Source of the DNA: Fidelibacterota bacterium
Lineage (GTDB): Bacteria; Pseudomonadota; Alphaproteobacteria; Rhodospirillales; Rhodospirillaceae
Assembly (NCBI GenBank): GCA_947476625.1
Contig: CANJRA010000007.1
Location: 1 to 64,000 of the forward strand
DNA length: 64,000 nucleotides
Reading direction: 5' to 3'
Shown: piece after piece, positions 41,350 through 60,685 of the stretch
Position numbering within the stretch: the stretch's first letter is position 1
How the letters are laid out: each line of letters begins with the position of its first letter
Notes under the pieces: generated by a model
Told to the model about the DNA's origin: nothing
The model's input: only the letters and a program-made list of their open reading frames with translations
The model's database searches: none
Made by a program: the position numbers and the translations under genes

Positions 41350-42311
41350 TATTTTCCAGACGGCAACATGCGGCGCCCGCCGCCGTTTTTGTGATCGCGC
41401 TCCTCGCGATCTCACTCATGGCGACGAATGCTCACGCCCAGTCACTGCGTCTGGACGGCACCGACAAGCCCATCGATGTCACCGCCGAGCAGGGCATCGA
41501 GCTTCAGCAAGATGCAAAGCGCGCCATCGCGCGCGGTAATGCCAAGGCTGTGCAGGGCGAAGTCACCATCACCGGTGACGAGCTGATCGCCGACTATCGC
41601 ACCAAGGCCGATGGCGCCAGCGAAGTCTACCGCGTGTTCGCGCGCGGCAACGTCACCATGAAATCCGCCTCCGAGACTGCAACCGGCGAAACTGCGGTCT
41701 ACGACATCGACAAAGGCGTGCTGGTCTTGGAAGGCGCGCTTGTCACTCTGGTCAATGACACCGGGTCTGTGACGGCGCATCGTGCGCTCCAGTATTGGTC
41801 GAATGAACGCGTTGCCGTGGCCGAAGGTACGGCCATGGCCGAAGACAAGGACAAGCGCCGCATTTACGGCGACAAGCTGGTCGCATTTTTTAAAGAACAA
41901 AGCGCACAGAAGCCTAAGACCACAAAAGGCACGGGCGTGTTGTCAGGTGATCGCGGCGACATCTCGTTCATTCAGGGCTTTGGCAACGTACGCATGGAAA
42001 CCGCCCGCGACATCGTGCGCGGCGAGCGCGGGGTCTACAATATCGAGACCGGCATCGCCACACTCGACGGCCGCGTGAAGATCACGCGCGACAAAAATCA
42101 AATGGGCGGCGGCTTCGCTATTGTGAATGTCAAAGGCGGCACCAGCCGCCTCTTCAAGAGTGCCGCGGAAGCCGGCATGCAAGGCGTATCGCAGAACGCA
42201 CGCGTCGCGGCGCTGCTGGCGCCCAAGACCAAGGACGACGCAGCTGCGCCTCAAGCCGCGCCTGCCGTTATGCCCGCGAATATGCCCGCGAATATGAAAG
42301 ATAAAAAATGA
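41346..42311 (+). CDS. lptA: LPS transport periplasmic protein LptA
   Basis: A 321-residue exported protein with signal peptide AVFVIALLAISLMATNAHAQ. The OstA-like repeats are seen: IDVTAEQGIELQQDAKRAIA, RGNAKAVQGEVTITGDELIA, FARGNVTMKSASETATGETA, and VLEGALVTLVNDTGSV. It is longer than enteric LptA, with an additional repeat and a low-complexity tail (PANMPANM). It forms the periplasmic bridge for LPS. ATGA overlap with lptB. Confidence 0.92.
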   Translation: MIFSRRQHAAPAAVFVIALLAISLMATNAHAQSLRLDGTDKPIDVTAEQGIELQQDAKRAIARGNAKAVQGEVTITGDELIADYRTKADGASEVYRVFARGNVTMKSASETATGETAVYDIDKGVLVLEGALVTLVNDTGSVTAHRALQYWSNERVAVAEGTAMAEDKDKRRIYGDKLVAFFKEQSAQKPKTTKGTGVLSGDRGDISFIQGFGNVRMETARDIVRGERGVYNIETGIATLDGRVKITRDKNQMGGGFAIVNVKGGTSRLFKSAAEAGMQGVSQNARVAALLAPKTKDDAAAPQAAPAVMPANMPANMKDKK

Positions 42312-43081
42312 TGCCCGATACCGTCCGCGAGACGCGCCCGGCGGCAGCTAACCAGACCGACAAAGGTCTTGTGGTGCGCAACCTCGGCAAAACCTTCAAA
42401 GGCCGTCCGGTCTTGCGCGATGTCAGTCTTGCCGTCAAACGCGGTGAGGCGGTCGGATTGCTTGGGCCTAACGGCGCCGGCAAAACCACCTCGTTCTATT
42501 GTGTCACCGGATTGATCAGTCCTGATCAGGGCAAGATTTTCCTCGACGACCAAGATATCACCGCGCTGCCGATGTACCGCCGCGCACGTCTCGGCATCGG
42601 TTATCTCCCGCAGGAAGCCTCGATCTTTCGCGGCATGACCGTCGAAGGCAACATCCGCGCCGTCGCCGAAGTGGTCGAAACCGACAAGCATGCGCAGGCC
42701 GCTTTGGTCGACGCGCTTTTGCGCGAATTCTCCATTGAACATCTCCGCCGCTCGCCCGCGCTCGCGCTATCCGGCGGCGAACGCCGCCGCTGCGAAATCG
42801 CCCGTGCGCTGGCGTCGCGTCCAAGCTTCATTCTGCTCGACGAACCCCTGGCCGGCATCGATCCCATCGCCGTCGGCGAAATTCGCGAGATGGTCTCGCA
42901 CCTGAAGGACCGCGGCCTCGGCGTGCTTATTACCGACCATAACGTCCGCGAAACCCTCGACATCATCGACCGCGCCTACATCCTTCACGAAGGCAGCGTC
43001 CTGATGGAGGGGGGCCCCTCGGAAATCGTCGCCCATGAGGGTGTCCGCAGGGTCTATCTCGGCGAGCGGTTTAGCCTTTAA
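42308..43081 (+). CDS. lptB: LPS export ABC transporter ATPase LptB
   Basis: A 257-residue ATPase. Walker A is LLGPNGAGKTTSFYCVTG, signature LALSGGERRRCEIARALAS, Walker B SFILLDEPLAGIDPI, H-loop ITDHNVRETLDIIDRAYILH. It powers extraction of LPS by LptFG from the inner membrane. The matching LptF/LptG genes in this window are 13 kb away in the sphingolipid cluster. Confidence 0.97.
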   Translation: MMPDTVRETRPAAANQTDKGLVVRNLGKTFKGRPVLRDVSLAVKRGEAVGLLGPNGAGKTTSFYCVTGLISPDQGKIFLDDQDITALPMYRRARLGIGYLPQEASIFRGMTVEGNIRAVAEVVETDKHAQAALVDALLREFSIEHLRRSPALALSGGERRRCEIARALASRPSFILLDEPLAGIDPIAVGEIREMVSHLKDRGLGVLITDHNVRETLDIIDRAYILHEGSVLMEGGPSEIVAHEGVRRVYLGERFSL

Positions 43082-46459: not shown

Positions 46460-47209
46460 CTAATTCCGAAATGTCTGGTTGACGAAGTGCGCCGTCAGTA
46501 CGGCTAGCAAGTCGAACGCAGGGTCTTCCGCCAGAGCGACATCGGCCGCGGCGCCCAGTGTTTTGCCGGCATCCAAAGCCGCAACCAACGCCGCATCCGC
46601 GCCCGTAATCTCGCGCGTTACCACATGCTGTCCGCGCCGCGACACCAGCACATATGAACCGACCGTCAGATCCAACGCAGGGATTGCGGCGTCGTCTGCC
46701 TGATGTACGTTCCAAATTTGGTAAAGCGGAAAGGGCGATGTCAGCAGGCGCGTTGCCGGATGCAGCTTCACGGTCGTGCGCTCCATATCTTCGGGCGGCA
46801 GCGTGGCGAACGGTTGCAAATCAAGCGGCGCGGCGTCGGCGGCGAAGTAAGCCGCATGGCGCGCCCACTCTAATCTGGCAACGTCGGCGAGGTATGGAAC
46901 GTGGCGAATCACATCATCCCGCGTGATGAAATCAGCCAGCGCTTCGCCGTAGCTGGAAAGATGCGGCGCTTGCGGCGGCATCGCCGCGGTAAACCGCTCG
47001 GTGAGGCCGGTAAAAAGTCTGTCGCCCACCAGGCGCCGCGTCACGGGATAAGCGCCCGCCAGCACATTGTATAAGCCGCCGTGAATCGTCTGACGATACA
47101 CCGCAAGGCGCGCGGCGGTATCTTGCGCCAGCAGAGCCAGCGAAGCCTCGTCTTCGCCGAGTACAGCGGCCACGAAACGGCGCTGCATCTCGCGCAGTTC
47201 AAGCGACAT
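46460..47209 (-). CDS. bufC: DUF2063 protein, partner of the MNIO enzyme (BufC/HvfC type)
   Basis: Start at 47209 gives 249 residues. The N-terminal DUF2063 domain is clear: [63 protein letters not shown]. The C-terminal half is the winged domain seen in HvfC/MbnC-like partners that bind the precursor peptide and help the DUF692 enzyme modify it. It overlaps the bufB gene by 11 bases and is the third gene of the operon. Confidence 0.88.
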
Positions 47210-48059
47210 AAGCACGATCCTTAATATGTTGGCCCGCGCGATCAAGAATGCGTTGCGCGATGGCCGCTTCGTTCATCAGTACTGGTAGCGTCGGCAAGGC
47301 ATGATCCCATTCGATCAGCGTCGGCACCGCGCCGGAGCGGGCAATAACCTCGGCGTACAAGTCCCATACCGCGTCGCAGACCTGCGCGCTATGCGTATCG
47401 ATCAGCAGCCGTGTGTCGCCGTCGCCCGTCACGGTGTGTCCGGCCAGATGAATCTCTCCTACCGCCGCCAGGGGAAAGTCGCGCAGATAAGCCCCTGCAT
47501 CGAAACCGTTGTTGGCGGCGCTGACGTATACATTGTTGATATCCAGCAGCAGGCCGCAGCCGGTGCGCTCCACCAGCAGCGCCAGGAAATCGACCTCGCT
47601 CATGTCCGCGTCCGTAAAGCGCACGTAGGTTGATGGATTTTCGATCAAAAGGCGCCGCCCAAAAAATTCCTGCGCTTGCGCCACATTGCGGCACACCGTT
47701 TCCAGCGCGCTTTCAGTCATGGGCAGGGGCAGTAGATCGTTGAGATAAACGCCCTCACTGACGCTCCACGCCAGGTGCTCCGAGATCAGCCCCGGTCGCA
47801 CGCGCGCGAATAGCAGTTTCAGGCGCGCGAGATGTTCTCTGTCTAAACCGTCCGCCGAGCCCAACGACAGGCCCACCCCGTGACAACTCACCGCCATACG
47901 CGCGGCCACAGCATTCAGCATCGAAAGACGCGGTCCGCCGTCGCACAGAAAATTCTCACTGTGAATTTCGACCCACGCAGGTGCGGACACATCGCCCGCC
48001 GCTAGCGCGGTCATGTGCTGTGTGCGAAGACCGATACCTGCTGCGGTCGGAACGCCCAA
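47199..48059 (-). CDS. bufB: DUF692 multinuclear non-heme iron oxidase (MNIO; BufB/HvfB type)
   Basis: A 286-residue TIM-barrel enzyme. Metal ligands are seen in order: Glu/His in [10 protein letters not shown], His in [20 protein letters not shown], His in [10 protein letters not shown], Glu in [11 protein letters not shown], Asp in [12 protein letters not shown], Glu/His in [11 protein letters not shown], His in LIDTHSAQV and Glu in [10 protein letters not shown]. This family (including MbnB and HvfB) oxidises Cys in ribosomal peptides to oxazolone- or thiooxazole-type groups. Partner genes on both sides identify the substrate and accessory protein. Confidence 0.93.
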
Positions 48060-48073
48060 GCGCGCCTTTTCCT

Positions 48074-48454
48074 TTATTTCTGGCCTTGCGATCCGTGATC
48101 GTGCGGCGCGCTTTCTTCAGCGGGTGCCGCCGGTTCTGCGGCAATCGTTCCGGCGTCGGCGAATGCCTCAAGCTTTCCGCCGATCTTTTCACAGGTGCCG
48201 CTCTCGACGGTTTTCCATTCCTGGCCGCTATTATCTCTCTTGGCCAGGTTGCTGCAGTGATGCGCACCATCCGCCGCGGCGCATTCGTTTTCGCCCGCTT
48301 TGGCAACGCCGAAACAGCGTTCCTTGCTCGCGACCGCGGTCGCCAGAGCCGCGTCCTGGTTGCTCGCCGTCGTGCGCGTATTCATGCTAATAGCTGTTGC
48401 ACCGACCACCGCCGCCGCGCCGACAACCGCTGCCGCCAGAATTTTCTTGTCCAT
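48074..48454 (-). CDS. bufA: DUF2282 RiPP precursor (bufferin/HvfA type)
   Basis: Start at 48454 gives 126 residues with an N-terminal signal peptide ([20 protein letters not shown]). The core has four Cys at 47, 58, 67 and 88 in [25 protein letters not shown] and [11 protein letters not shown], the DUF2282 pattern. The MNIO enzyme encoded just downstream would modify some of these Cys, after which the exported product binds copper. A Pro/Ala/acidic tail of about 35 residues ending HDHGSQGQK follows the core and is longer than usual. Confidence 0.88.
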
Positions 48455-48601
48455 GAAGGCTCTCTCTATGACTGTCAGCTCATACCAAGCGTTGCATATA
48501 TCATAAGATAATCGGGGCCTTAGCCCGTATTCGCAAGCGCTGAAATATTTGTAACACTCGGTGAGTTGACCTGGGATGCCTTTAAAGTGACAACGCCCCC
48601 A

Positions 48602-50398
48602 ATGCAGTCCTCCGCTACAGCCAATGCTGCCGACGCCGCTCCGGCGTTGCATCGCACGCCGACCGAAAATCCGGGCCTCAAGAAGGTTCTTGCGGATTTC
48701 GCCACCCTGACCGAGGCGCTCGATTACGCAGCCAAGGGCGAGACGGGGTTCAACTTCTATTCCGCGCGCGGCGCGCTCGAAGACGTCATCACTTACAAGA
48801 GTTTGCGCGAGCAGGCCGTCAGCCACGCCTTGCGGCTATCGGCCGCCGGAATCAAACCCGGCGACCGCATCGCGCTTCTTGCCGGAACCGAAACGGATTT
48901 CCTCAAGCTCTTTTTTGCCTGCCAGTACGCGGGCGCCATTCCAGTGCCGATGCCGCTGCCCACGGCCTTTGGCCGCCGCGAAGCCTACATCGATCAAATC
49001 AGAGGCCAGATGGTGTCCTCCGGCGCACGCATGGCGCTGGGTCCGGCGGAATTTCTGCCGTTGGTCAAAGAATCCGCCGCAGGCCACGCGCTAGACCTCA
49101 TCGGTTCGCTGACCGACATCACCGCATTACCGGAAGGCCAAGGCACACTTTCGCCCGGCAAGACCGACGATCTTTCTTATATCCAGTACAGCTCCGGCTC
49201 CACGCGCTTTCCCATGGGCGTCATGGTCACCCATGCCAGCCTCATGGCCAATTGTCAGGGCATGAACAAACACGGCGTTTCCACGCGCCTCACCGACCGT
49301 ACGATGTCTTGGCTGCCGTTTTTCCACGACATGGGCTTGGTCGGTTTCATGTTCGGTCCGCTCTCAAGCCAGACATCGGCGGACTATCTCCCCACGGAAG
49401 ATTTCGCGCGCCGTCCGCTCACCTGGCTGAAGCTTATCAGCGACAACGGCAACAGCATGTCGTATGCGCCGTCCTTCGGATACGAACTCTGCGCCCGCCG
49501 CGTCGCCAATAAGAATGACGCATCGCTCGAACTTGATCTGTCCAAGTGGCGCATCGCCGGCATCGGCGGCGAGATGATCAAGCCGCACGTCATGCACGCG
49601 TTCGCGGCCGCTTTCAAACCCTACGGTTTTTCCGATCAGGCGTTCTGCGCCAGCTATGGTCTTGCCGAGTGCGTCTTGGCTGTCAGCTTCTCCAAGCCCG
49701 GCAGCGGCATGTTGCTCGATCATGTTGATAAGACAGCGCTCGAAGACCACCGCGCCGAACCTGTTGCCGCGCCTATCGCCGAGGACGGCACGCTGAACGG
49801 CCGCACGTTCGTTGCATGTGGCCGCGTCCTGCCTGACCACAAAGCCGAAATCCGCGACGGCGATACCGTGCTCGGCGCGCGCGCAATTGGGCGTCTCTTT
49901 ATCTCCGGCCCCAGCATCATGAAGGGTTATTACAATAATCCCGAAGGCACCGCCGAGGCGTTGCATAACGGCTGGCTCGATACCGGCGATCTTGCTTACT
50001 GGATCGGCGAAGATCTCGTCATCGTCGGCCGCGCCAAGGACATGATGATCGTCAACGGGCGCAACGTCTGGCCGCAAGATATCGAGTGGACGGTCGAGCA
50101 TATCGACGGACTAAAGTCCGGCGACAGCGCCGCCATTTTGCTGGTCGACGGAACCGGCGTCGAAAAGCCCACCATCCTCGTGCAATGCCGCGCCTCCGAT
50201 CCGGCAGAACGTGCGCGCCTCGTCGGCGAAGTTCGCACGCGCGTACAAGAAGCAGTCGGCATCGTCTGTGATGTCGTTCTTGTCCCGGCACGCAGCCTCC
50301 CTAAAACGACGTCCGGCAAACTCGCCCGTAATCGCGCCAAGACCATGTTCCTTGCCGGAGAGATTGCTCCGATCGAAAACAACAACACTTCTACGTAA
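48602..50398 (+). CDS. Fatty acyl-AMP ligase (acyl-ACP synthetase) of the sphingolipid cluster
   Basis: ATG at 48602 gives 598 residues. The adenylate-forming motifs are [60 protein letters not shown], and [20 protein letters not shown], with the FAAL-type insertion rather than a CoA-ligase hinge. It activates a fatty acid as acyl-AMP and loads it onto an ACP. Two genes on lies the ACP, and then serine palmitoyltransferase, so it likely supplies the acyl-ACP used by Spt. Equivalent ligases are in the Caulobacter ceramide cluster. Confidence 0.9.
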
Positions 50399-50403
50399 GC
50401 GCC

Positions 50404-51345
50404 ATGGCCCTTCCCATTGTCGCAGTCACCGGCGCGACGGGCTTCATCGGCCAACGTCTTGTGCGGATGCTGGCTGATGCTGGTTATCAAGTGCGGGCAC
50501 TCGCGCGCCGTGTTCCCGCCCGCGAAGACGTTGCCGATGATGTGACCTGGGTCTTCGGCTCGCTCGCGGATCAGGACGCGCTTGCGTCCCTCGTGAAAGG
50601 CGCCGATGCCGTTGTCCATTGCGCCGCTGCCATCAAAGCCGCCAACCGCGACGCCTTTCTCGCGGTCAACAGCGGCGGCACGCGGCTTTTAGCGTCGATC
50701 GCCGCCGCGCAACCCGTACCGCCGCGTTTTATCCTGCTGTCGTCCATCGCCGCGCGCGAACCGCGCCTGTCTCACTACGCCGCCAGCAAGCGGGCAGGGG
50801 AGCTGGCCTTGCGCGCGTTTCCCCAACTGCCTGCCGTCATTCTCCGTCCGCCCGCTGTGTATGGGCCCGGCGACATGGAAACCTTGCAGATCTTCCGTAT
50901 GGCCGCACGGGGCTTTGTCCCGGCGCCCATGGTGGACAACGCCCGGATGTCGCTCGTCCATGTCGACGATGTTGCCGGCGCGGTGCTGGCCGCCCTAAAA
51001 CTTGCCGATCTGCCCGAACACCCCATCGAATTCGACGACGGCAAGCCGGGCGGCTATTCCTGGGTCGAGATTGCCGCCGCCGCCGGGGCGGCCCTGCGCG
51101 TGCGCCCCAAAGTTATCCCCATCCCGGCTGCAGTGTTCTACCTGATCGGGGGACTGGCCAGCATTGCCGCCGCGCTCACCCGCCGTCCGACGGTCCTTTC
51201 CTGGGGCAAGGTGCCCGAGCTGCTCCACCCCGACTGGGCCGCCGCCGCCGGCGCTTTCCCCGGCTATAAGCCATTGTGGGATATAGGGAACGGCTTCAAG
51301 GACGCGGTCACCTGGTACACCTCACGGGGCTTGTTAACATCGTAA
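50404..51345 (+). CDS. cerR: NAD(P)-dependent epimerase/SDR, probable ceramide reductase (CerR-like)
   Basis: A 313-residue extended SDR. VTGATGFIGQRLVRMLADAG is the nucleotide motif; ILLSSIAAREPRLSHYAASK the Ser/YxxxK site; ILRPPAVYGPGDMETLQIFR follows. It lies between the acyl-AMP ligase and ACP/Spt, where Caulobacter-type clusters carry the reductase that converts the keto group of the long-chain base. The C-terminus (VFYLIGGLASIAAALTR) contains a hydrophobic segment that could tether it to the membrane. The role is inferred mainly from position. Confidence 0.82.
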   Translation: MALPIVAVTGATGFIGQRLVRMLADAGYQVRALARRVPAREDVADDVTWVFGSLADQDALASLVKGADAVVHCAAAIKAANRDAFLAVNSGGTRLLASIAAAQPVPPRFILLSSIAAREPRLSHYAASKRAGELALRAFPQLPAVILRPPAVYGPGDMETLQIFRMAARGFVPAPMVDNARMSLVHVDDVAGAVLAALKLADLPEHPIEFDDGKPGGYSWVEIAAAAGAALRVRPKVIPIPAAVFYLIGGLASIAAALTRRPTVLSWGKVPELLHPDWAAAAGAFPGYKPLWDIGNGFKDAVTWYTSRGLLTS

Positions 51346-51453
51346 CGGGCGAGTTGATTTGTAACCTTTCCGTCATTCCAGCACTCTACCGCAGTGCACC
51401 CGCAAGTGTTGGTTAACGCGAACGCGGGGACGAATGAGGAACGGTTTTAGGAC

Positions 51454-51720
51454 ATGAACGATTCCGGCCCAGAGCCGTCAGCCGACACTCTGGCGGCGCT
51501 TTTCGAAATCCTAAAGTCGTTCAACAAGACCGGTGCCGAACTCAGCCCGGGAACGAGATTCACCGAAGACCTGAATTTCGATTCCCTGGTGGTGATGGAG
51601 TTCATCGCGGTTGTTGAGGACAGTTTCGATATCTCGGTGCCTCTCAACATCCTGCCGGACGTGGCGACGATCAAAGATTTGGCAATCGCGGTCGAAAAGA
51701 TTGTCGCGGCGGATAAGTAA
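51454..51720 (+). CDS. Dedicated acyl carrier protein of the sphingolipid cluster
   Basis: An 88-residue ACP with the phosphopantetheine Ser in EDLNFDSLVVMEFIAVVED and a helix IPPD-like region replaced by SVPLNILPDVATIKDLAIAV. It is acidic and four-helical, as usual, but clearly different from housekeeping AcpP. Sits immediately before spt, so it likely carries the acyl chain that Spt condenses with serine. Confidence 0.92.
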   Translation: MNDSGPEPSADTLAALFEILKSFNKTGAELSPGTRFTEDLNFDSLVVMEFIAVVEDSFDISVPLNILPDVATIKDLAIAVEKIVAADK

Positions 51721-51751
51721 CTGAAGTTTTTTTGGTAAATCCTTAGGGGAC

Positions 51752-52990
51752 ATGATCATGGCAGGTTTGTTCGATCGTTTCGCTCCACTCATGGGTCAAC
51801 GCGACGCTCTTTTCGGCGACAGCGGCGTCAACCCCTTCAGTGTGAAGATGGATCGGGTTCTCTCGCAGACCGAAGCGATGATCGAAGGTCGTCGCACCAT
51901 TCTCGTCGGCACCAACAATTATCTCGGCCTGACGTTCGCCCCCGAAGCATTGAAAGCCGCGCACGACGCGCTGGAAGCTTCCGGCACCGGCACCACCGGC
52001 AGCCGCATGGCGAACGGCACCTATTCCTGCCACAAGGGTCTCGAAGATACGCTGTGCGACTTCTTCGGCAAAGAGCATGCCATGGTGTTCTCCACCGGCT
52101 TCCTCGCCAACATCGGCATTCTTTCCACGTTGATGGGCCCGGACGATTACATCGTCATGGACGCCGACTGCCATGCCTCGATCTATGACGGCGTGCGCGG
52201 CGGCTCCGCTCAGATCATCCGCTTCAAGCACAACGACGCCGCCGACCTCGATAAGCGTTTGGCGCGCCTTGCCGATAAACCCGGCAACAAGCTGATCGTC
52301 ATCGAAGGCATCTACTCGATGCTCGGCGACAAAGCGCCGCTGGCCGAAATCGTCGCGGTGAAAAAGAAATACGAAAACGTCTACCTGCTCTCCGACGAAG
52401 CCCATTCGCTGGGCGTGCTCGGCAAGTACGGCCGCGGTCTGCCGGAAGAAGTCGGCTGCGAAGACGATGTTGATTTCATCGTCGGCACGTTCTCGAAGTC
52501 GGTCGGTACCGTCGGCGGCTTCTGCGTTTCCAATCACCCGGATTTCGAGACCCTGCGTCTCGTCTGCCGCGCTTACATCTTCACCGCATCGTTGCCGCCG
52601 TCGGTTGTCGCCTCGGCGACGGTCAATCTCGGCCTCGTTAAAAACGGCGGCGCGCTTCGCAAGCGCTTGATGCGCAACGCCCAGCAGCTCCACGCCGGTC
52701 TCACCGCGATCGGCCTCAAGGTCGCCAGCGAGAACAGCCCGGTCGTTGCCGTGGTTGCGCCGGACCCGCAGGTCGCCGTTGCTTTCTGGCGCGGTCTGAT
52801 CGAAGCCGGTGTTTACGTCAACCTGGCTTTGCCGCCAGCCACGCCGTACGGCTATTCGTTGTTGCGCGCCAGCCTTTGCGCCGCTCACACCGAAGAGCAA
52901 CTCAACAAAGTCATCGCGATCTTCGCCCAAGTCGCCGCCAAGGTCGGCCTGGCCGCGCCGGTCGAACACAAGCGCAGCGCCGTCGGCTAA
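51752..52990 (+). CDS. spt: Serine palmitoyltransferase
   Basis: A 412-residue alpha-oxoamine synthase. Glycine-rich entry segment TRKILVGTNNYLGL-like region (TILVGTNNYLGLTFAPEALK), TGTTGSRMANGTYSCHKGLE, DADCHASIYDGVRGGSAQII, LSDEAHSLGVLGKYGRGLPE and the PLP Lys in VGTFSKSVGTVGGFC are seen. It condenses serine with an acyl thioester to give 3-keto long-chain base, the committed step of sphingolipid synthesis. Upstream ACP, ligase and reductase genes distinguish it from KBL or BioF. A strong terminator follows. Confidence 0.94.
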   Translation: MIMAGLFDRFAPLMGQRDALFGDSGVNPFSVKMDRVLSQTEAMIEGRRTILVGTNNYLGLTFAPEALKAAHDALEASGTGTTGSRMANGTYSCHKGLEDTLCDFFGKEHAMVFSTGFLANIGILSTLMGPDDYIVMDADCHASIYDGVRGGSAQIIRFKHNDAADLDKRLARLADKPGNKLIVIEGIYSMLGDKAPLAEIVAVKKKYENVYLLSDEAHSLGVLGKYGRGLPEEVGCEDDVDFIVGTFSKSVGTVGGFCVSNHPDFETLRLVCRAYIFTASLPPSVVASATVNLGLVKNGGALRKRLMRNAQQLHAGLTAIGLKVASENSPVVAVVAPDPQVAVAFWRGLIEAGVYVNLALPPATPYGYSLLRASLCAAHTEEQLNKVIAIFAQVAAKVGLAAPVEHKRSAVG

Positions 52991-53011
52991 GCTTTCAAAT
53001 ATATTCCATCG

Positions 53012-53041
53012 AAAACGCCGGGCCTCACGCCCGGCGTTTTT
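53012..53041 (+). terminator. Intrinsic terminator after spt
   Basis: AAAACGCCGGGC pairs over 12 bp with GCCCGGCGTTTT around a 5-base loop, and the stem's T run extends the tail. It ends the acyl-AMP ligase to spt transcription unit. The upstream A run could also terminate minus-strand transcription. Confidence 0.88.
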
Positions 53042-53063
53042 GTTTTGGTGCTAATCTCGCTGC

Positions 53064-53981
53064 ATGATGACGCCCCATGAACTCCGCACGCTTGGGCTTG
53101 CCGTCCCGTCCGCGCCCGGTCGCCCTACGTACATCAGCGCCGCCAGTGGTTTAGTCCGCATCGCGTCATGGCTCTATGTCGTCGCCGACGACGAGCATCA
53201 TCTCGGCGTGTTCCGCGAAGGCAGCCTGTCGCCAGGTTCCCTCTTTCGCCTCATGGAAGGCGACCTGCCGCCCGATAAAGAGGACCGCAAGAAACACAAA
53301 CCGGATTTCGAGGCTTTGGTCAGGTTGCCGCCCTTCGGCGATTGCACCCACGGCGCACTGCTGGCTGTCGGCTCCGGCTCACGCGACAATCGCCGCCAAG
53401 GCGTGCTTGTTAGACTAACCGACGCAGGCGCATTGCGCGGAGCGCCCAACCCCGTCGATCTCTCGTTCATTTTGCGCCCGCATGAAGAGGTCTTCGCCGC
53501 GGTCAACATTGAAGGCACAGTGGTTACTAGTGCTGAGCTGCTGCTGTTCCAGCGCGGCAATAAGAAGCATAGCGCCAACGCGATTGTCAGATATTCACTG
53601 CCGGCATTTTTAGAGTCATTGCGCGCGGAAAAACCACCGCCGCTCGTGCCGCTTACACAGCAATTCTTCGATCTCGGCAAGGTGAATGATGTGCCGCTCA
53701 CCTTCACCGACGCCGCCGCTTTGCCGAATGGAGATCTTCTGTTCAGCGCAGTCGCCGAAGACACAGACGATTCCTACAATGATGGCCTCTGTGCGGGTTC
53801 CGCCATCGGTATTATTGCAGCCAACGGCACACTGCGCTGGATAAAGACTCTCGCGATCCCGTTGAAAATCGAAGGCGTGGATGCCCACCGCGTCGGCGAC
53901 GACCTCGCTATCCTTGCGGTAACCGATGCCGACGACATTGCTGTTCCGTCAAAGTTGCTATCGTTTACAGTGAGGGCTTAG
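53064..53981 (+). CDS. Beta-propeller-like protein of unknown function
   Basis: A 305-residue cytoplasmic-looking protein with no signal peptide. Repeated short beta segments such as LVRIASWLYVVADDEHHLGV, GALLAVGSGSRDNRRQGVLV and AALPNGDLLFSAVAEDTDDS suggest a beta-propeller of the DUF6929 kind, but I am not certain of the family. It lies between spt and the convergent ceramide-kinase genes and follows the spt terminator, so it has its own promoter. A link to sphingolipids is positional only. Confidence 0.6.
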   Translation: MMTPHELRTLGLAVPSAPGRPTYISAASGLVRIASWLYVVADDEHHLGVFREGSLSPGSLFRLMEGDLPPDKEDRKKHKPDFEALVRLPPFGDCTHGALLAVGSGSRDNRRQGVLVRLTDAGALRGAPNPVDLSFILRPHEEVFAAVNIEGTVVTSAELLLFQRGNKKHSANAIVRYSLPAFLESLRAEKPPPLVPLTQQFFDLGKVNDVPLTFTDAAALPNGDLLFSAVAEDTDDSYNDGLCAGSAIGIIAANGTLRWIKTLAIPLKIEGVDAHRVGDDLAILAVTDADDIAVPSKLLSFTVRA

Positions 53982-54017
53982 ACATAAAAGGCACGTGTAA
54001 GCGCTTAACGAGGGCAA

Positions 54018-54929
54018 TTACCGCAGCCCGCCCTTGCGCAGCGTTTTCAGCAACAGCCGCGCACCGGTGATCAGCGTACGCTTACGCTCTGCATCCGTCA
54101 GGTCGAGTTTTACGCCGGAATGACGTTCGATCTTCCAGACCGCATAATCAAGCCCGCCTTGAAATGTGAACGCCGCCTTGATCAGCCGCAACCCATTGAG
54201 CGTCTTGCCCTGCACGCGGCGTAGCCACCAGCTTCGCGCGGCCGTGTTCTGTTCGTGAAGCAAGGCGGCGCCGTAAATGCCGCCGCTCGGATCTCCCAGC
54301 ACCGCGCTCGTCACCGCGTTATAGCGCGCGAGTTCTCCATCCACGAGTTCAGCGCCTTTGCCGTCGCGTTCCGGACGCAGCTCGGCGCGGTAAGTCTCGG
54401 CGAAAGCGCGCACCCAAAGATCGCGCGTGGAGAAGGGCTGGTCCATCAATGGCCGTGTCCGCGCGATCATGGTCGTGACAGCGCTGCATAGGCCCGCAAC
54501 CAAACGCCGCCGCAGTTCGTCATTGCGTGCATATAAAATTATCGTCGGCTGGGCGAAGCGTGCCCACAAACTCGACGCAAACGTTTCCGGCGCCACGTTC
54601 TGTAAGAACTGATTGACCGCGATCACCGCTACTTTAGCGCGCACGATGCGGCCTTCGAAGATCATCTCGTGATAATAGACGTTAGGCGGCAGCAGCCGCG
54701 CGCCCAGTGTCGACGGCACACTTCGCAGCGCCGGTCCGTACTTGTCGACCAGCACATAGAAATCTAACAGCAAGCCGACGTCGGTATTTTGCCGCAAGCA
54801 CGATCCGTAAAAGATCACCGCCGCCGCAGCTTGACCGTAGTGTGCGCGTAGATGTTCGCTGAAGGCGTTGGCAGCGGGAAACGTATCGCGCGCAACTTCA
54901 GCGCCGATGATGTCGGCAAGCGCGGTCAT
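54018..54929 (-). CDS. Nucleotidyltransferase-like protein of the sphingolipid cluster
   Basis: A 303-residue protein whose N-terminal part contains AVIFYGSCLRQNTDVGLLLD then FYVLVDKYGPALR, a nucleotidyltransferase-like GS-x-D-x-D arrangement reminiscent of Tam41/CDP-diacylglycerol-synthase-like proteins. The C-terminal half is helical and basic (YAVWKIERHSGVKLDLTDAE). It overlaps the kinase-like gene upstream by four bases. Caulobacter-type sphingolipid clusters carry similar pairs that build the ceramide phosphoglycerate head group, so a cytidylyltransferase role is inferred. Confidence 0.6.
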   Translation of the reverse strand: MTALADIIGAEVARDTFPAANAFSEHLRAHYGQAAAAVIFYGSCLRQNTDVGLLLDFYVLVDKYGPALRSVPSTLGARLLPPNVYYHEMIFEGRIVRAKVAVIAVNQFLQNVAPETFASSLWARFAQPTIILYARNDELRRRLVAGLCSAVTTMIARTRPLMDQPFSTRDLWVRAFAETYRAELRPERDGKGAELVDGELARYNAVTSAVLGDPSGGIYGAALLHEQNTAARSWWLRRVQGKTLNGLRLIKAAFTFQGGLDYAVWKIERHSGVKLDLTDAERKRTLITGARLLLKTLRKGGLR

Positions 54930-55867
54930 GCCGGAACTCGAATGAATCGTAAGGAACTGCTGCCGTCGAGCACCAGCGGCTGCTCGGCGCGCGCCTCATA
55001 CAGCTCGCCGTCGAGTGTGTAGGAACCAGTGAAGGTCAGCGTCAGTCGCTCCATGCGTTGCACCGTGCGTCCCGCGCCGGTCATGATACGCCGTTGCATG
55101 ATATTAGGCAGCAACCGCAGTACGGCCATCACGCCGCTGCGCACACTCGCATAATACAGGCTGCCCGCGCTGGTCTTGGGCGCCAGCGTAATTCCGAGCA
55201 GCAATTCATCCAAGGCGGTGACGGCCACGACAAAAAATTGTCCGTGTTCGAAGGCGCGATCGTTCTCGTAAATCGCAACCGTATCGTGGTTGCCCAGGCC
55301 GCGCAGACTACGCCACAGCAGCACGGCCATAGCCGTTACGTGACTCAGCACGTTGGGCATTTTCAGCGGATAGATATAGCGGCGGCAGAAACGGATACCT
55401 TCCACGACATCCGCCGCGCCGAAAAAGGCGCCGTAGAGCGGCGGCGTGCTATCGCTTTGCCGCAGTGTCAGGACCGGGCGCGTCACGACGTAACGCGCCA
55501 GCTGCCCCGCGCGCCGCGCGCGCAACAGCGCCGTAAGCGCCGCCTCCGGCGTGCCGGTCAAACTCCATCCCGCCGTCGTCATATTGGTTTTGCCGGCCGG
55601 CAACAGCGCGACCGCCGGCAGGGTCTGATAGGCAGTCCCATTCAATAGCGCCGCGAAGATTAGTCCCGCCGTGCCGTCGCCGCCGTTGACCACAATGGTC
55701 TCGGCGCCGGCCGCGGCGCATTGCCTCACAGTGTCGGCGACCGCGTCGATATGATCGATTCTGAAATGCAGCAGGTCCGGCTCGCCCGCGAGGATTGGGT
55801 CGATCCAATTATCACCGCGGAGGTTGCGGGTACTGCCATTATTGGTAATGACGGCGATTAAGCTCAA
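54926..55867 (-). CDS. cpgB: Lipid kinase, probable ceramide kinase (CpgB-like)
   Basis: A 313-residue protein of the diacylglycerol/sphingosine kinase catalytic family. The nucleotide motif is ETIVVNGGDGTAGLIFAALL, with LLPAGKTNMTTAG following and a beta-sandwich C-terminal domain (LTLTFTGSYTLDGELYEARA). It probably phosphorylates ceramide. It is translationally coupled to the nucleotidyltransferase-like gene. The alternative, a diacylglycerol kinase, is less likely given the neighbours. Confidence 0.85.
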   Translation of the reverse strand: MSLIAVITNNGSTRNLRGDNWIDPILAGEPDLLHFRIDHIDAVADTVRQCAAAGAETIVVNGGDGTAGLIFAALLNGTAYQTLPAVALLPAGKTNMTTAGWSLTGTPEAALTALLRARRAGQLARYVVTRPVLTLRQSDSTPPLYGAFFGAADVVEGIRFCRRYIYPLKMPNVLSHVTAMAVLLWRSLRGLGNHDTVAIYENDRAFEHGQFFVVAVTALDELLLGITLAPKTSAGSLYYASVRSGVMAVLRLLPNIMQRRIMTGAGRTVQRMERLTLTFTGSYTLDGELYEARAEQPLVLDGSSSLRFIRVPA

Positions 55868-56051
55868 TAGTGTCTCACGCGCTTCTGGTTTTGGGACAAA
55901 TCCGCCTACCGGCTATTATACGCGACAGATATACACTGAACCCCTTGTAATTGTATGAAAAAGTGCCACTGGCCCCGGTCGGGCTGGTCGCCTAAACTCC
56001 GCCCGAACGCGGGCCTCTCCTTGTGTTAACTGCCTGCGCCTGGCCGGATGT

Positions 56052-57329
56052 ATGATGAAAGCTATCGATCGCTATATTTTACGTCAGATCATCCCGACCA
56101 TTGCGGTGATTCTGTTTATCGCTGCCGTGATTCTGATGATGGAGCGGCTGATGCGCCTGCTCGACATCGCCGTCGGCAACGGCGTCTCGACGCTGGTCGT
56201 CTTTCAGATGCTGTTTTATCTGTTTCCCTATTACATCGGCTTGGCGCTTCCTATGGCGCTGTTTCTCGGCGTGCTGTTGGCTTTCCGCAAACTCTCCGGT
56301 CAATCCGAACTCGATGCCATCCATTCCTGCGGCATCGGCATGAGCCGCCTGATCCGCTCGTCGCTGGTCCTTGCTCTCGTCATGATGGGCATCAATCTGT
56401 TTCTCACCGGCTATGCCCAGCCCTATACGCGCTACCTTTTCCGCGCCGTGATGTTCAACATCACTTCCGGCGTCATCGAGCAGGGCCTCGGCGAGGGCGT
56501 CTTCACCAGTTTGCCCAATGGCTATACCCTGCGTGTCGAGCAGTCGCGCGGTGCCGGCCGAGAACTCTACGGTGTTTTTGCGCACAAGCAGGAAGATGAC
56601 GGCCATGTCGTCACGCTGACCGCCAAGCGCGGCGAACTCATGACCGGCGCCATGAACGGCACGGTGTCGCTGCGTCTTTATGAAGGCAATCGCTCCGAAT
56701 GGAATCCCGAGACCAAAGCAGCGGCGACGCTGGCTTTCCAGGTGTTCGATTGGCCGCTGAACCTCGCCGACCTCGTGCGTTTCCGTGGTCGCGGCGGCGA
56801 CGAGCGTGAGCTTACGCTGTTCGAATTATTCCGCGGCTATCGCATCAACTTAATAAATGACCATTGGAGCAATGTCGCCGAGGCCAACCCCGCGCCGGAA
56901 AAACCGCCCGAGGAAGTCATCGCGCCGTCGGCAGTATCGGCCGAACTGCATGGCCGCTTGGTGTTCTCGCTCTCCATGCTGCTGCTACCGATCCTCGCCG
57001 CACCGCTCGGCATCATGACCACGCGCGCCAGCCGGTCCTTCGGCCTCATCCTCGGCCTGTTGATCCTCGTCAGCTATCATAAAATTCTGGAATTCGCCGG
57101 CGCTTATGCTGCCTCCACGGGTGCGCCTGCCGGTATAATTCTGTGGTCGGCCTTTGCGGTCTTTACGGCGTTTACGGGCTATCTTTTCTACATCACCGAG
57201 CGCCAGGCCGGCACGCCGCCGGTCCTGCGCATGGAAGCGCGTTGGGTTGCCTTCCTCGATCGCATCGTCGCGGTGTTTCGTCCGAAGCGTCTGCAGCAGC
57301 AAGCCAGCGCCCGCGCGGCAGCGAAATAA
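56052..57329 (+). CDS. lptF: LPS export permease LptF (YjgP/YjgQ family)
   Basis: A 425-residue protein with six membrane helices, three at each end: IDRYILRQIIPTIAVILFIA opening, FYLFPYYIGLALPMALFLGV, and after the periplasmic beta-jellyroll the C-terminal LSMLLLPILAAPLGIMTTRA and FGLILGLLILVSYHKILEFA. It pairs with LptG and LptB to extract a lipid from the inner membrane. It sits inside the sphingolipid cluster with no lptD or surA nearby, which is unusual; it may serve sphingolipid as well as, or instead of, LPS. Confidence 0.92.
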   Translation: MMKAIDRYILRQIIPTIAVILFIAAVILMMERLMRLLDIAVGNGVSTLVVFQMLFYLFPYYIGLALPMALFLGVLLAFRKLSGQSELDAIHSCGIGMSRLIRSSLVLALVMMGINLFLTGYAQPYTRYLFRAVMFNITSGVIEQGLGEGVFTSLPNGYTLRVEQSRGAGRELYGVFAHKQEDDGHVVTLTAKRGELMTGAMNGTVSLRLYEGNRSEWNPETKAAATLAFQVFDWPLNLADLVRFRGRGGDERELTLFELFRGYRINLINDHWSNVAEANPAPEKPPEEVIAPSAVSAELHGRLVFSLSMLLLPILAAPLGIMTTRASRSFGLILGLLILVSYHKILEFAGAYAASTGAPAGIILWSAFAVFTAFTGYLFYITERQAGTPPVLRMEARWVAFLDRIVAVFRPKRLQQQASARAAAK

Positions 57330-57347
57330 TAAGGGGCCGGTCGCCGT

Positions 57348-58427
57348 ATGATTCTCTCTCGTTATCTCATGAAGGCATTTATCGGCCGCTTCTTGATGCT
57401 GCTGATCGGCCTTGTCCTGTTCCTGCAAACCTTGGACCTGCTGGCCACCGCCAATGAAGTCCTTGCCGGCGGCGGCGATCCTGTCGCATCGCTGTCGCGC
57501 TATGTCAGTTTGCGGCTGCCCGGTCTCGTCGAAACTGTTGCGCCGCTGGCGGCGCTTCTTGGCGCTTTAACGGCCATGGTCGGCATGGCCACCAACAGCG
57601 AAATTCTTGCCATGCGCGCAGCCGGGCGCTCGGTGCTTAGCCTTGTCGGCGGCCTGATGGCGGTGGGCATGTTGCTCTCGGGCTTGTTGTTCGTGTTCTC
57701 GGAATTCATCGTCGTGCCGACTAGCGCCAAACTCGAAGATTGGCGCGACGCCGGCTTCAAGGCTGACGGCCATGTCGAGACCGGCGAGAACAGTTGGATC
57801 ATGGATGGCAGCTCCATCATCCGCGTCGGCCATGTCATGCGCGACGGCACCGTGCTCAACGACATTCGTGTCTTCAGGCAGGACAAAGACGGCAACGTCA
57901 CCGACATTATCGGCATTCGTCTGGCGTTGTGGGAAACCGATCACTGGTCCGTCTTCGAACCCAAACGCATCGGCGGTCTCGTCCCCGAAGACGAAAACGC
58001 GCCGCTGCCGACATGGGATACGCAGCTCCGCCCCGAGCATTTCATCCGCTTCGCCAATCACCCCAATCAGCTATCGTTGAGCACGCTGCGAGAGTATTCC
58101 GGCAACCAGGCCATCGGTTCACATCCGGGATATTTCTATGACACGTGGTTGCAGCAAAAAGCGGCTGGGCCCTTGGTCCTGGCGCTCATGCCGCTTCTGG
58201 CCGCGATTGCTGCTTTTGCCCATCACCGCCAGGGCAGCTCGGTCGTCACCGTCGTGTGGGGTATTACGATTGGATTTTCGTTTGTTGTCATCGACAACAT
58301 CGTTCTGGCTATGGGCCAATTCGGCTCGCTGCCGCCGGTTTTGGCGGCATGGTTACCGCTGGCGTTGTTTGGCACACTAGGTCTGTGGATCGTATTCAGA
58401 TTTGAGCATACTGGCGCCCACACCTGA
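57348..58427 (+). CDS. lptG: LPS export permease LptG (YjgP/YjgQ family)
   Basis: A 359-residue permease with the same architecture: LSRYLMKAFIGRFLMLLIGL, LRLPGLVETVAPLAALLGAL, a periplasmic beta domain, and QGSSVVTVVWGITIGFSFVV near the C-terminus. It starts 18 bases after lptF. The following gene encodes a lipid hydroxylase, then the ceramide synthase, so the pair is embedded in the sphingolipid operon. Confidence 0.92.
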   Translation: MILSRYLMKAFIGRFLMLLIGLVLFLQTLDLLATANEVLAGGGDPVASLSRYVSLRLPGLVETVAPLAALLGALTAMVGMATNSEILAMRAAGRSVLSLVGGLMAVGMLLSGLLFVFSEFIVVPTSAKLEDWRDAGFKADGHVETGENSWIMDGSSIIRVGHVMRDGTVLNDIRVFRQDKDGNVTDIIGIRLALWETDHWSVFEPKRIGGLVPEDENAPLPTWDTQLRPEHFIRFANHPNQLSLSTLREYSGNQAIGSHPGYFYDTWLQQKAAGPLVLALMPLLAAIAAFAHHRQGSSVVTVVWGITIGFSFVVIDNIVLAMGQFGSLPPVLAAWLPLALFGTLGLWIVFRFEHTGAHT

Positions 58428-58466
58428 GCGGGCTTATATACGCGCCAGAACAATAGGATACGCCGT

Positions 58467-59279
58467 TTGAGTCTCAAACTCGGTTTCTGGAGCGATAAGG
58501 AATACCACCTCGACCGCATGGATCTCAGCGGCCTGACGGAAGCGTATTTCCAGTACTACGCTATCGCCGCTTATATTCTGGTGGCTTTAGCCGCGGGCGC
58601 TGCTGCGTTCTATGGGCTGGCGACAGGCCAAGCCGCGCTACTGCCCACATTGTTTTCCATGCTGGCCACCTTCTTCATTTATCCCATCGTCTGGTATCTG
58701 CTGCACCGCTATATCCTGCATAGCCGCTGGATGTGGAAATCAAAGCTGACCGCCGGCACGTGGAAGCGCATTCACTACGATCACCACTCCGATCCCAACA
58801 ATCTCAAGGTTTTGTTCGGCGCGCTCTACACCACACTGCCGACGGTTGCGCTGGCAAGTATGCCTGTCGGGTATCTGCTGGCCGGTTGGGTCGGCGCGCT
58901 CGCAGCGTTAGCTACCGGCGTCGTGCAGACCTGCATCTATGAATACTTTCACTGCATTCAGCATCTCGGCTACCAGCCCAAATGGGCCTGGGTGCGTGAG
59001 ATCAAAAAATTTCACATGGCGCATCATTTCCACAACGAGAATGGCAATTACGGCATCACGAATCTGTGGTGGGATAAAGTGCTGGGCACGCTTTACGAAG
59101 GTGCGGGTGCGCGCCCGCGTTCGCCGACAGTTTTCAATCTCGGTTACGACGAAGAGGTCGCCAAAACTTATCCCTACGTCGCCAAGATGACGCCGAACTG
59201 GCCCTACAACACGAACCCCGTTTCCCGCAAACGCGAGGAAGCGGCCGCGCGCGAAGCTTCCGCCGCGCAGCCGAGCTAG
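58467..59279 (+). CDS. Fatty acid/sphingolipid hydroxylase (sterol desaturase family)
   Basis: A 270-residue membrane diiron enzyme, TTG start. The His boxes are seen: LLHRYILHSRWMW, HYDHHSDPNNLKV, CIQHLGYQPKWAW and HMAHHFHNENGNYG, within four or more membrane helices. Such enzymes hydroxylate fatty acyl or long-chain-base carbons. Position between lptG and the ceramide synthase points to a sphingolipid substrate. Confidence 0.92.
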   Translation: MSLKLGFWSDKEYHLDRMDLSGLTEAYFQYYAIAAYILVALAAGAAAFYGLATGQAALLPTLFSMLATFFIYPIVWYLLHRYILHSRWMWKSKLTAGTWKRIHYDHHSDPNNLKVLFGALYTTLPTVALASMPVGYLLAGWVGALAALATGVVQTCIYEYFHCIQHLGYQPKWAWVREIKKFHMAHHFHNENGNYGITNLWWDKVLGTLYEGAGARPRSPTVFNLGYDEEVAKTYPYVAKMTPNWPYNTNPVSRKREEAAAREASAAQPS

Positions 59280-59285
59280 TCACAC

Positions 59286-60428
59286 ATGGATATTGCCGTT
59301 CGTGAGATAGGCAAGGGCGCGTCCCTCTCGCAGTTCATGCACGTGCCGCATGTCACGCAAGGCCACGATCCGTATTGGGTTGCGCCGATCGCGCTGCTTG
59401 AATCGCCGCGCCTGAACCCGAAGAAAAATCCGTGGTTCCAGAACGGTGAAGCGGCGCTGTTTGTTGCCGAACGTGGGGGCAAACTTGTCGGGCGCATCTC
59501 CGCGCAGGTGGATCACAACCATCTTAAAACCTATAACGACGCCACCGGCTTCTTCGGTTTCTTTGAAACCATCGACGACCAAGCCGTCGTCGACGCGTTG
59601 TTCAAAGCCGCTGCCGATTGGTTGCGCGCCAAAGGCATGACGCGCTGCGTCGGGCCCTTCAGCTTCAACATCAACGACGAGTCCGGCCTGCTGATCGACG
59701 GCTTCAACTGCCCGCCGCGCATGGTAATGGGCCACGCCCAGCCCTACTACCAAACTCTGGTCGAGGCCGCCGGCTTTACCAAAGTCGTCGACATGCGCGC
59801 GTATCTTACGCCGATGGACACCGGGCTGCCCTTCAAGCAGCTCAAGTGGCTCAAGCGCGCGCTCGACCGCAATCCAAGCCTCAACGTGCGCCCCATCGAC
59901 ATGAGCCGTTATGACGAAGAAATGGCCGCCGTCGGTCACATCTTCCGCACCGCCTGGGCCGAGAATTGGGGATCGATCCCGCAAACCGACGCCGAGCTTC
60001 ACCACATGGCGGCCGAGATGAAACTCATCATGATCCCCGAACTGGTGTCCATCGCCACCGTCGACGGCAAACCCGCGGCCATGTGTCTCGCGCTGCCTGA
60101 TCTCAACGAGATGACCCGCGATCTCAAGGGCAAACTCTTTCCCTTCGGTTGGGCCAAGCTGGTGTGGCGTCTGCTCACCCGCCGGTCGTTCGTTTCGGGC
60201 ACGCGCGTCCTTCTGATGGGCGTCATGCCTGAATACAAAAACAAGCCCATGGGATCGGTGTTGGCGCTGCTGACGGTCGGCGCAGTGCGCGATGCGCAGC
60301 TAAAACTCCGCATGCCGGTCGCAGAAATGAGCTGGGTGCTGGAAACCAACACCCAAACCTGCCATTCGATTGAAGACATCGGCGGTCGTGTCTACAAAAC
60401 CTACCGTATGTACGAGAAGGCGCTGTAA
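59286..60428 (+). CDS. bcerS: Bacterial ceramide synthase (GNAT-related acyltransferase)
   Basis: A 380-residue GNAT-superfamily protein. KNPWFQNGEAALFVAERGGK, RISAQVDHNHLKTYNDATGF, GFFETIDDQAVVDALFKAAA and VGPFSFNINDESGLLIDGFN make up the first acetyltransferase-like domain, then the second (YKNKPMGSVLALLTVGAVRD, EMSWVLETNTQTCHSIEDIG). This is the layout of bacterial ceramide synthases, which acylate the long-chain base. It starts seven bases after the hydroxylase gene and its stop overlaps the next small gene, consistent with an operon. Confidence 0.9.
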   Translation: MDIAVREIGKGASLSQFMHVPHVTQGHDPYWVAPIALLESPRLNPKKNPWFQNGEAALFVAERGGKLVGRISAQVDHNHLKTYNDATGFFGFFETIDDQAVVDALFKAAADWLRAKGMTRCVGPFSFNINDESGLLIDGFNCPPRMVMGHAQPYYQTLVEAAGFTKVVDMRAYLTPMDTGLPFKQLKWLKRALDRNPSLNVRPIDMSRYDEEMAAVGHIFRTAWAENWGSIPQTDAELHHMAAEMKLIMIPELVSIATVDGKPAAMCLALPDLNEMTRDLKGKLFPFGWAKLVWRLLTRRSFVSGTRVLLMGVMPEYKNKPMGSVLALLTVGAVRDAQLKLRMPVAEMSWVLETNTQTCHSIEDIGGRVYKTYRMYEKAL

Positions 60429-60685
60429 TGCTCGGGCGGCTTTTGCGGCTCTTTCTGATCGTGATGGCGGCGGCGGCCATTATCGTGCTGTTTGCTTATG
60501 CGTTTCTCGCCGCGCTGATCATCACGCCGATCCTGTTCGCGATCTTCTACTTCTTCGGCCGCACAACGGCCCAGCAGTGGTGGGTGGTCCGCCAAGGCCA
60601 ATACCAGCCTTCCGAAACTCAGCGCCCGCCGCATACGGCGCCGGTCATCGACCACGACCCCAACGATCTCCCGCCTAAGGAATAG
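60428..60685 (+). CDS. Small membrane protein after the ceramide synthase
   Basis: An 85-residue protein with one or two membrane helices (FLIVMAAAAIIVLFAYAFLA, LIITPILFAIFYFFG) and a hydrophilic Pro-rich tail (PSETQRPPHTAPVIDHDPND). The ATG overlaps the stop of the ceramide synthase by one base. Family not recognised. Its position suggests a membrane partner of sphingolipid assembly. Confidence 0.7.
   Translation: MLGRLLRLFLIVMAAAAIIVLFAYAFLAALIITPILFAIFYFFGRTTAQQWWVVRQGQYQPSETQRPPHTAPVIDHDPNDLPPKE

Follow-up and report, generated by a model that had tools for sequence, protein, structure and literature searches.

Two genes of Caulobacter crescentus, CC_1156 and CC_1155 in the region CC_1168-CC_1152, have been named LptF2 and LptG2, and it has been suggested that they participate in moving phosphosphingolipids to the outer membrane (PMC11324152); the excerpts of that paper used here state that the transport itself was not investigated. 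The route by which bacterial sphingolipids reach the outer membrane is given as unknown in excerpts of the same paper and of PMC11087976. Here we consider an LptF/LptG pair encoded within a sphingolipid gene cluster at 48566-60685 of a 64,000-nucleotide stretch of alphaproteobacterial DNA (positions 1 to 64,000 of contig CANJRA010000007.1, assembly GCA_947476625.1, order Rhodospirillales), which we call the window. The genome has a second, unlinked LptF and LptG, and across the alphaproteobacteria compared the unlinked type follows lpxC while the cluster type does not. We think it probable, from this distribution and the gene neighborhood, that the cluster pair acts as an alternative permease head, through which (phospho)sphingolipids enter the common Lpt bridge. 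The idea of sphingolipid transport by Lpt proteins is not new, because PMC11324152 already proposes LptF2 and LptG2 for phosphosphingolipids; what is added here is the lpxC pattern. Among the matches listed from the open-licence PMC literature, nothing besides PMC11324152 concerned sphingolipid transport by Lpt, and none reported the lpxC pattern, the two LptF/G groups or the single LptB described below.

A whole-genome search of the 2.62 Mb, 100% complete assembly found four PF03739 genes, comprising the cluster pair, one gene on contig C1 and one on contig C4. An earlier note on the window, made from its sequence only, had suggested either that the only LptFG pair had moved into a sphingolipid locus or that this was a second pair for sphingolipid export. 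The four genes dispose of the first suggestion; as to the second, there are indeed two sets, one in the cluster and one unlinked, and the phylogeny and lpxC pattern given below support a separate second pair, for which export would be the predicted role. The cluster lptF (56052-57329, forward strand, 425 amino acids) and lptG (57348-58427, forward strand, 359 amino acids) encode proteins scoring 235.8 and 206.3 bits against PF03739, both well over the family cut-off of 27.9 bits. The C1 gene (G000:C1 426355) is LptF-like and adjoins LptD, as the note had expected of lptFG in general, while the LptG-like C4 gene (G000:C4 78363) departs from that expectation, its neighboring open reading frame (ORF) having a sub-cut-off match to the LpxF/PAP2 family. 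These two genes, of the type that we associate with lipopolysaccharide (LPS), are not linked to each other, and the same is true of the LPS-type genes in G080, G149, G150 and G152.

The two sets are readily told apart by profile, the window LptF scoring 607 against 120 and the C1 gene 97 against 606 on the two LptF profiles, each gene being in the seed of its own profile. We considered the possibility that the cluster pair was the more divergent by profile score, but this was ruled out, as it is the unlinked genes that score lower on the LPS models. The cluster pair passes the NCBI cut-offs (240.1 bits on TIGR04407, cut-off 230, for LptF; 260.9 on TIGR04408, cut-off 240, for LptG), with the unlinked pair just under (228 and 236.2). 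A caution follows for annotation, in that the NCBI models accept the sphingolipid-type pair in this genome while the LPS-type genes fall just short. The same scores could be taken to favor redundancy in LPS export, with either pair able to lift LPS and the cluster pair sitting by chance in a sphingolipid locus, an idea to which we return with the lpxC pattern.

To place the two sets, we used loci of the putative ceramide synthase bCerS as a guide. With an alignment of bCerS, 581 relatives were obtained in public genomes, of which the best 80 were used as loci, with flanks fetched up to 10 kb, and PF03739 searches covered 47 of the 80 (48 were chosen and L076 was left out). Proteins from these 47 genomes, from genomes of the window's order and from eight further loci were reduced from 288 to 206 rows by dropping six short pieces and merging repeats, and trees of 103 LptG and 105 LptF rows were made by a quick method that leaves about a third of the forks open. 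Group labels were assigned manually by inspection of the trees; "sphingolipid-type" denotes the alphaproteobacterial rows that remain once the listed groups are removed, with three odd LptF and two odd LptG rows set aside; the typing profiles were built from few sequences. Alphaproteobacterial status was judged by record title or by membership of the window's order, and the titles are vague for G181, G186 and G192; some look misassigned, such as "Marinimicrobia" for the nearest relatives.

An alphaproteobacterial LPS-type clade of 30 LptG and 31 LptF rows includes the window genome's unlinked genes, and it contains no bCerS-linked row and no row from a genome lacking lpxC. The window's cluster pair falls outside this clade, as do the alphaproteobacterial bCerS-linked rows, barring those of genomes G180, G184, G187 and G192 and the odd LptG of G183. 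In a thinned LptG set (90 rows, 13 of the 103 being left out), the 41 retained sphingolipid-type rows form one side of a branch at 98.9. A separate group of 15 rows, mostly bCerS-linked, comes from records titled Nitrospirota, Desulfobulbaceae, Acidocella, Geothrix and others. A single origin of all bCerS-linked LptG was weakly rejected when both linked groups were forced into one clade (approximately unbiased test, p-AU 0.035), and this, with the separate group, suggests that the LptFG family probably became joined to sphingolipid genes more than once. As a control, one LptF or LptG was taken from each of 40 genomes of the order that lack a bCerS match, drawn from among the best-scoring matches listed, and 40 of 40 were of the LPS type; genomes of genus g40, typed as different earlier, were left out of this control. 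Four further genomes without bCerS (G018, G097, G113 and G129) are also of the LPS type, so that the typed genomes without bCerS number 44 of the LPS type and three of the sphingolipid type (n=47). The earlier note had named a single pair, always at this locus even without spt and with no divergence, as the finding that would speak against its suggestion; the window genome has two deeply diverged sets instead, while the g40 relatives do correspond to that case in part, keeping a sphingolipid-type pair, their only one, without spt or bcerS matches.

LpxC, LptD and LptB were searched in 60 genomes, and the 48 alphaproteobacterial ones with typed LptF/G were compared (G018, G097, G113 and G129 had no LpxC search, the LptF/G of G031 and G048 were not fetched, and all six are outside the comparison). 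Of the 29 genomes with lpxC, 27 have the LPS type, against none of the 19 without it (Fisher p 1.8e-11, uncorrected for kinship), while all 19 genomes without lpxC have the sphingolipid type. Because completeness is not given for G150-G196, absences there are less sure. LptD and LptB are each found in 18 of the 19, both being missed only in G136, which is 79% complete, and in 16 of the 19 (not G074, G086 or G105) LptF or LptG stands beside bCerS or other sphingolipid genes. The LpxC state changes at least six times on the sphingolipid-type LptG gene tree (42 rows), although this does not translate into a count of losses in species, as the gene tree includes paralogues from G150 and G152. One of the genomes without lpxC is Rhodothalassium salexigens (G163), whose outer membrane is reported, in the excerpts of PMC11762602 used here, to lack LPS and to contain sphingolipids. 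A redundant LPS exporter would not be expected to be the type found in 19 of 19 typed alphaproteobacterial genomes with no LpxC match, nor to be of another type than 40 of 40 sampled LptF/G of genomes without bCerS, the g40 genomes being the exception. In spite of the NCBI scores, we therefore consider that explanation improbable.

Gene neighborhood points the same way as the lpxC pattern. Within the order, bCerS is present in eight of 150 genomes, and four PF03739 matches occur in three of 150 (the window genome, one of the same genus and one of the same family), all three with bCerS and all three having the extra LptFG pair adjoining it. Five genomes have three PF03739 matches and no bCerS (G018, G089, G092, G100 and G124), those of G018 being one gene in two pieces and another gene. 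Each of the five remaining bCerS genomes has two PF03739 genes; those of G067 and G099 are LPS-type genes located away from bCerS, and those of G062, G121 and G136 are of the cluster type. Among the public relatives, both LptF and LptG lie in the fetched flank of 44 of 80 bCerS loci; for the 39 loci that reach 19 kb or more, the figure is 30. We conclude that the cluster LptFG is not a chance neighbor. The note had proposed checking co-occurrence with spt and bcerS across genomes; to a strict coupling the g40 genomes are a counterexample. Spt lies in the fetched flank of 45 of the 80, and no bCerS was confirmed in viral contigs. If the linkage were simply inherited from an ancient gene order and had no functional meaning, LptFG would be a neutral passenger, and an order shared by close relatives such as L058-L062 fits that idea. 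The linkage persists, however, under other gene orders and orientations (L041, L094, L118 and L129), and the separate bCerS-linked LptF/G group in the Nitrospirota-, Desulfobulbaceae-, Acidocella- and Geothrix-titled records, with one clade weakly rejected as above, is also difficult to reconcile with it, so that we regard a neutral passenger as very improbable.

The neighborhood also bears on the nature of the presumed substrate. In the 39 long bCerS loci, a kinase or Tam41-like gene accompanies the complete LptF/LptG pair in 26 of 30 cases and is found in none of the nine loci without both genes (Fisher p 3.4e-6), three of these nine (L079, L105 and L116) having one of the two permease genes. 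This suggests that LptFG tends to accompany head-group genes and not bare ceramide synthesis, with exceptions in four of the 30 long loci and in R. salexigens, whose ceramides are reported without phosphate or sugar. In the close relatives L042 and L060, the part of the sphingolipid cluster that was fetched has neither a kinase nor a Tam41-like gene, so that head groups may differ among close relatives.

We inspected the positions that contact LptB. The window LptF has E84 and R292 and the window LptG has E88 and R301. These are the glutamates of the coupling helix and the loop arginines which, according to the excerpts of PMC6744409 and PMC5548808 used here, contact LptB or nucleotide in solved structures of the complex. 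Across 46 sphingolipid-type rows, E84 is kept in 45 and R292 in 46 for LptF, and E88 and R301 in 44 each for LptG. Retention of these contacts would also be expected of a redundant LPS exporter. At the positions of E. coli LptG K40 and K41, 26 and 24 of the 30 alphaproteobacterial LPS-type LptG have arginine, while sphingolipid-type LptG is mostly acidic or neutral there (arginine at K41 in seven of 46, lysine at K40 in two of 46, among the residues listed). As K40E/K41E is tolerated in E. coli (PMC5548808, in the part used here), the difference is a mark and not a mechanism. The periplasmic domains were compared by length and charge, and net charge was ruled out as a distinguishing feature, its medians being alike in both types. 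AlphaFold models of the window LptF and LptG (mean predicted local distance difference test score, pLDDT, of 85.9 and 83.5) show a bundle of helices into which a periplasmic beta domain is inserted, and their best matches are solved LptF and LptG chains; normalized by query length, the TM-scores are 0.44-0.63 for LptF and 0.56-0.82 for LptG (E up to 0.001).

The remaining Lpt genes of the window, lptC (40534-41349), an lptA-like gene (41346-42311) and lptB (42308-43081), all on the forward strand, lie about 13 kb from lptF and were not in the note's account of the locus. LptC (PF06835) is a single match in the genome at E 0.001, a threshold that a very divergent LptC could escape; the LptA-like protein matches PF03968, the second genome match being the N-terminal part of LptD; and LptB (TIGR04406, 364.9 bits, cut-off 240) is the sole genome match at E 1e-65, with 38 of 47 first-look candidates scored. 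In all, one each of LpxC, LptD, LptC, LptB and an LptA-like protein was found. In 21 genomes with both types of LptF/G, 19 have one LptB, two have none and none has two, and all 21 have one LptD; the LptB searches scored at most 38 first-look candidates per genome, to E 1e-65 only, and a divergent second LptB may be missed. A single LptB and LptD, with the kept LptB contacts, fit a model of two heads working on one motor and one bridge. Second LptB genes were seen elsewhere: in G170 (contig C34; L094, titled Desulfobulbaceae) one lies in the sphingolipid contig, and in G183 (L286, an alphaproteobacterium) one is directly beside an odd, divergent LptFG. These sets possibly represent complete dedicated transporters. 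In G160, a second LptB match lies at a contig end.

Several observations weigh against an alternative head for sphingolipids. Two genomes with lpxC have no typed LPS-type gene, namely G180, where the LptF/G genes are fragmented and divergent and the LpxC match is the weakest (180.8 bits), and G195, whose two LptF/G copies are both within the 15-row group. Among the genomes without lpxC, G160 carries an additional, divergent pair and G163 carries three LptF/G genes. The lpxC rule is not seen outside the alphaproteobacteria, where G176 combines the absence of an LpxC match with two LptFG pairs, one linked and one unlinked. The LptG K34 position, important in E. coli, was tried as a separating residue and rejected, being aspartate in 27 of 30 LPS-type and aspartate or glutamate in 46 of 46 sphingolipid-type alphaproteobacterial rows, and hence acidic in both. 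According to the excerpts of PMC11762602, the ceramides of R. salexigens carry no phosphate and no sugar, and no kinase is seen in the cluster stretches of G080 and L060; an anionic head group thus does not appear to be an absolute requirement. A third pair in the close relatives G152 (L232 6551-8871) and G150 (L243 4844-7205) is of the sphingolipid type by profile and tree, and lies outside the bCerS cluster. Finally, G074, G086 and G105 (family f31, genus g40; L198, L199 and L200) have a sphingolipid-type pair as their only pair, keep LptD and LptB, and gave no LpxC or bCerS match and no Spt over the model cut-off; G031 and G048, also of g40, have matching gene counts. In g40, the sphingolipid type can evidently outlive sphingolipid synthesis, or serve another lipid. 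The g40 pairs, the third pairs and the phosphate-free ceramides could all be accommodated if the pair, within the Lpt machine, carried a wider lipid class with sphingolipid as one of several substrates. Since LptFG is linked to spt, kinase and bcerS in many distant genomes, we think this unlikely, though less so than either a redundant exporter or a neutral passenger.

If the cluster pair is a sphingolipid head, as we prefer, a scheme can be suggested in which we infer the substrate, the shared bridge, the outer-membrane destination and each enzyme step. Ceramide would be made by the ligase, the acyl carrier protein (ACP), Spt, CerR and bCerS, and then hydroxylated and phosphorylated by the kinase; the Tam41-like protein would perhaps activate the phosphorylated ceramide towards an anionic sphingolipid. 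Sphingolipid-type LptF and LptG, powered by the cell's LptB, would lift the sphingolipid out of the inner membrane and hand it via LptC and LptA to LptD, with the unlinked LptF and LptG lifting LPS in parallel. More generally, it may be that LPS and sphingolipid each have a head of their own, the two being interchangeable on a single LptB-LptC-LptA-LptD bridge, and that repeated loss of lipid A in alphaproteobacteria took the LPS head with it, leaving LptD as a sphingolipid translocon; we are evenly divided on this broader proposal. Organisms that lack lpxC and retain LptB, LptD and sphingolipid-type LptFG would allow a direct test of the sphingolipid export route.

The cluster itself bears out the note's description of LptF and LptG embedded among spt cluster genes. 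It begins with a fatty acyl-AMP ligase (FAAL) gene (48566-50398, forward, with an in-frame ATG at 48602; NF006624, 756.8 bits, cut-off 600), followed on the same strand by a putative CerR, a short-chain dehydrogenase/reductase (SDR)-type reductase (50404-51345; PF01370, E 6.8e-30), ACP (51454-51720; PF00550, E 7.9e-08), serine palmitoyltransferase Spt (51752-52990; NF047599, 608.5 bits, cut-off 500) and a DUF6929 protein that is perhaps unrelated (53064-53981; PF22000, E 6.5e-69). On the reverse strand are a gene missing from the note's list, for a weakly Tam41-like nucleotidyltransferase (54018-54929), and a lipid kinase gene (54926-55867; PF00781, E 4.4e-11) that could encode a ceramide kinase of the CpgB kind and is divergently oriented to lptF, with 184 bases between. 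The Tam41-like protein alone had no match in a Pfam search to E 1; one of 14 homologues matches Pfam Tam41 (E 3e-05), and a profile of the 14 has its best PDB matches, weak ones, in the Tam41 structures 6ig2 and 6ig4 (E 0.0034 and 0.0037). It is a possible counterpart of CpgC/CC_1161, and as such would activate ceramide-1-phosphate. After lptG, all forward, come a fatty acid hydroxylase family protein (58467-59279; PF04116, E 1.8e-19), the GNAT-like putative ceramide synthase bCerS (59286-60428; assigned with the bCerS alignment, its PF00583 Acetyltransf_1 match at E 0.0095 being under the cut-off) and, as the final gene of the run, a small membrane-like protein of 85 amino acids (60428-60685). 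The names CerR and bCerS are our assumption, made by gene position, as the family models used give neither. The spacing from lptF through lptG and the hydroxylase to bcerS is 18, 39 and 6 bases, the last two as short as the note had described, and the 85-amino-acid gene overlaps bcerS by one base. A Pfam search at E 0.001 gave no family for its product, which has a homologue in G080 (42.9%) and further ones in L058-L062. Adjoining the cluster, at 46460-48826 on the reverse strand, are an MbnB/TglH/ChrH-type enzyme and DUF2063 and DUF2282 ORFs, presumably a metal-binding cassette of the RiPP (ribosomally synthesized and post-translationally modified peptide) kind, bufferin-like.

The annotated genes of 48566-60685 include no counterpart of LptC2, a flippase or the CPG2 genes, and beyond the cluster only LptC was sought, one being found. 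In the excerpts of PMC11324152 used here, by contrast, the Caulobacter region is said to include LptC2, a potential flippase and CPG2 genes (CC_1159, CC_1158, CC_1153 and CC_1152). Relative to the E. coli LPS exporter LptB2FGC, the cluster pair has the same family and fold and keeps the LptB contacts, while the sphingolipid type is a separate tree group and differs from the alphaproteobacterial LPS type at LptG K40/K41. The alphaproteobacterial LPS-type LptF and LptG, encoded by the C1 and C4 genes, are of the same family and in the same cell, yet stand apart on the trees. The closest likeness is to Caulobacter LptF2/LptG2, as that locus is described in those excerpts: in both, a second LptF/LptG is found close to the gene for ceramide synthase, within an spt cluster that also encodes a ceramide kinase (a putative one here), although here one hydroxylase gene lies between lptG and bcerS, and the likeness is one of gene order.

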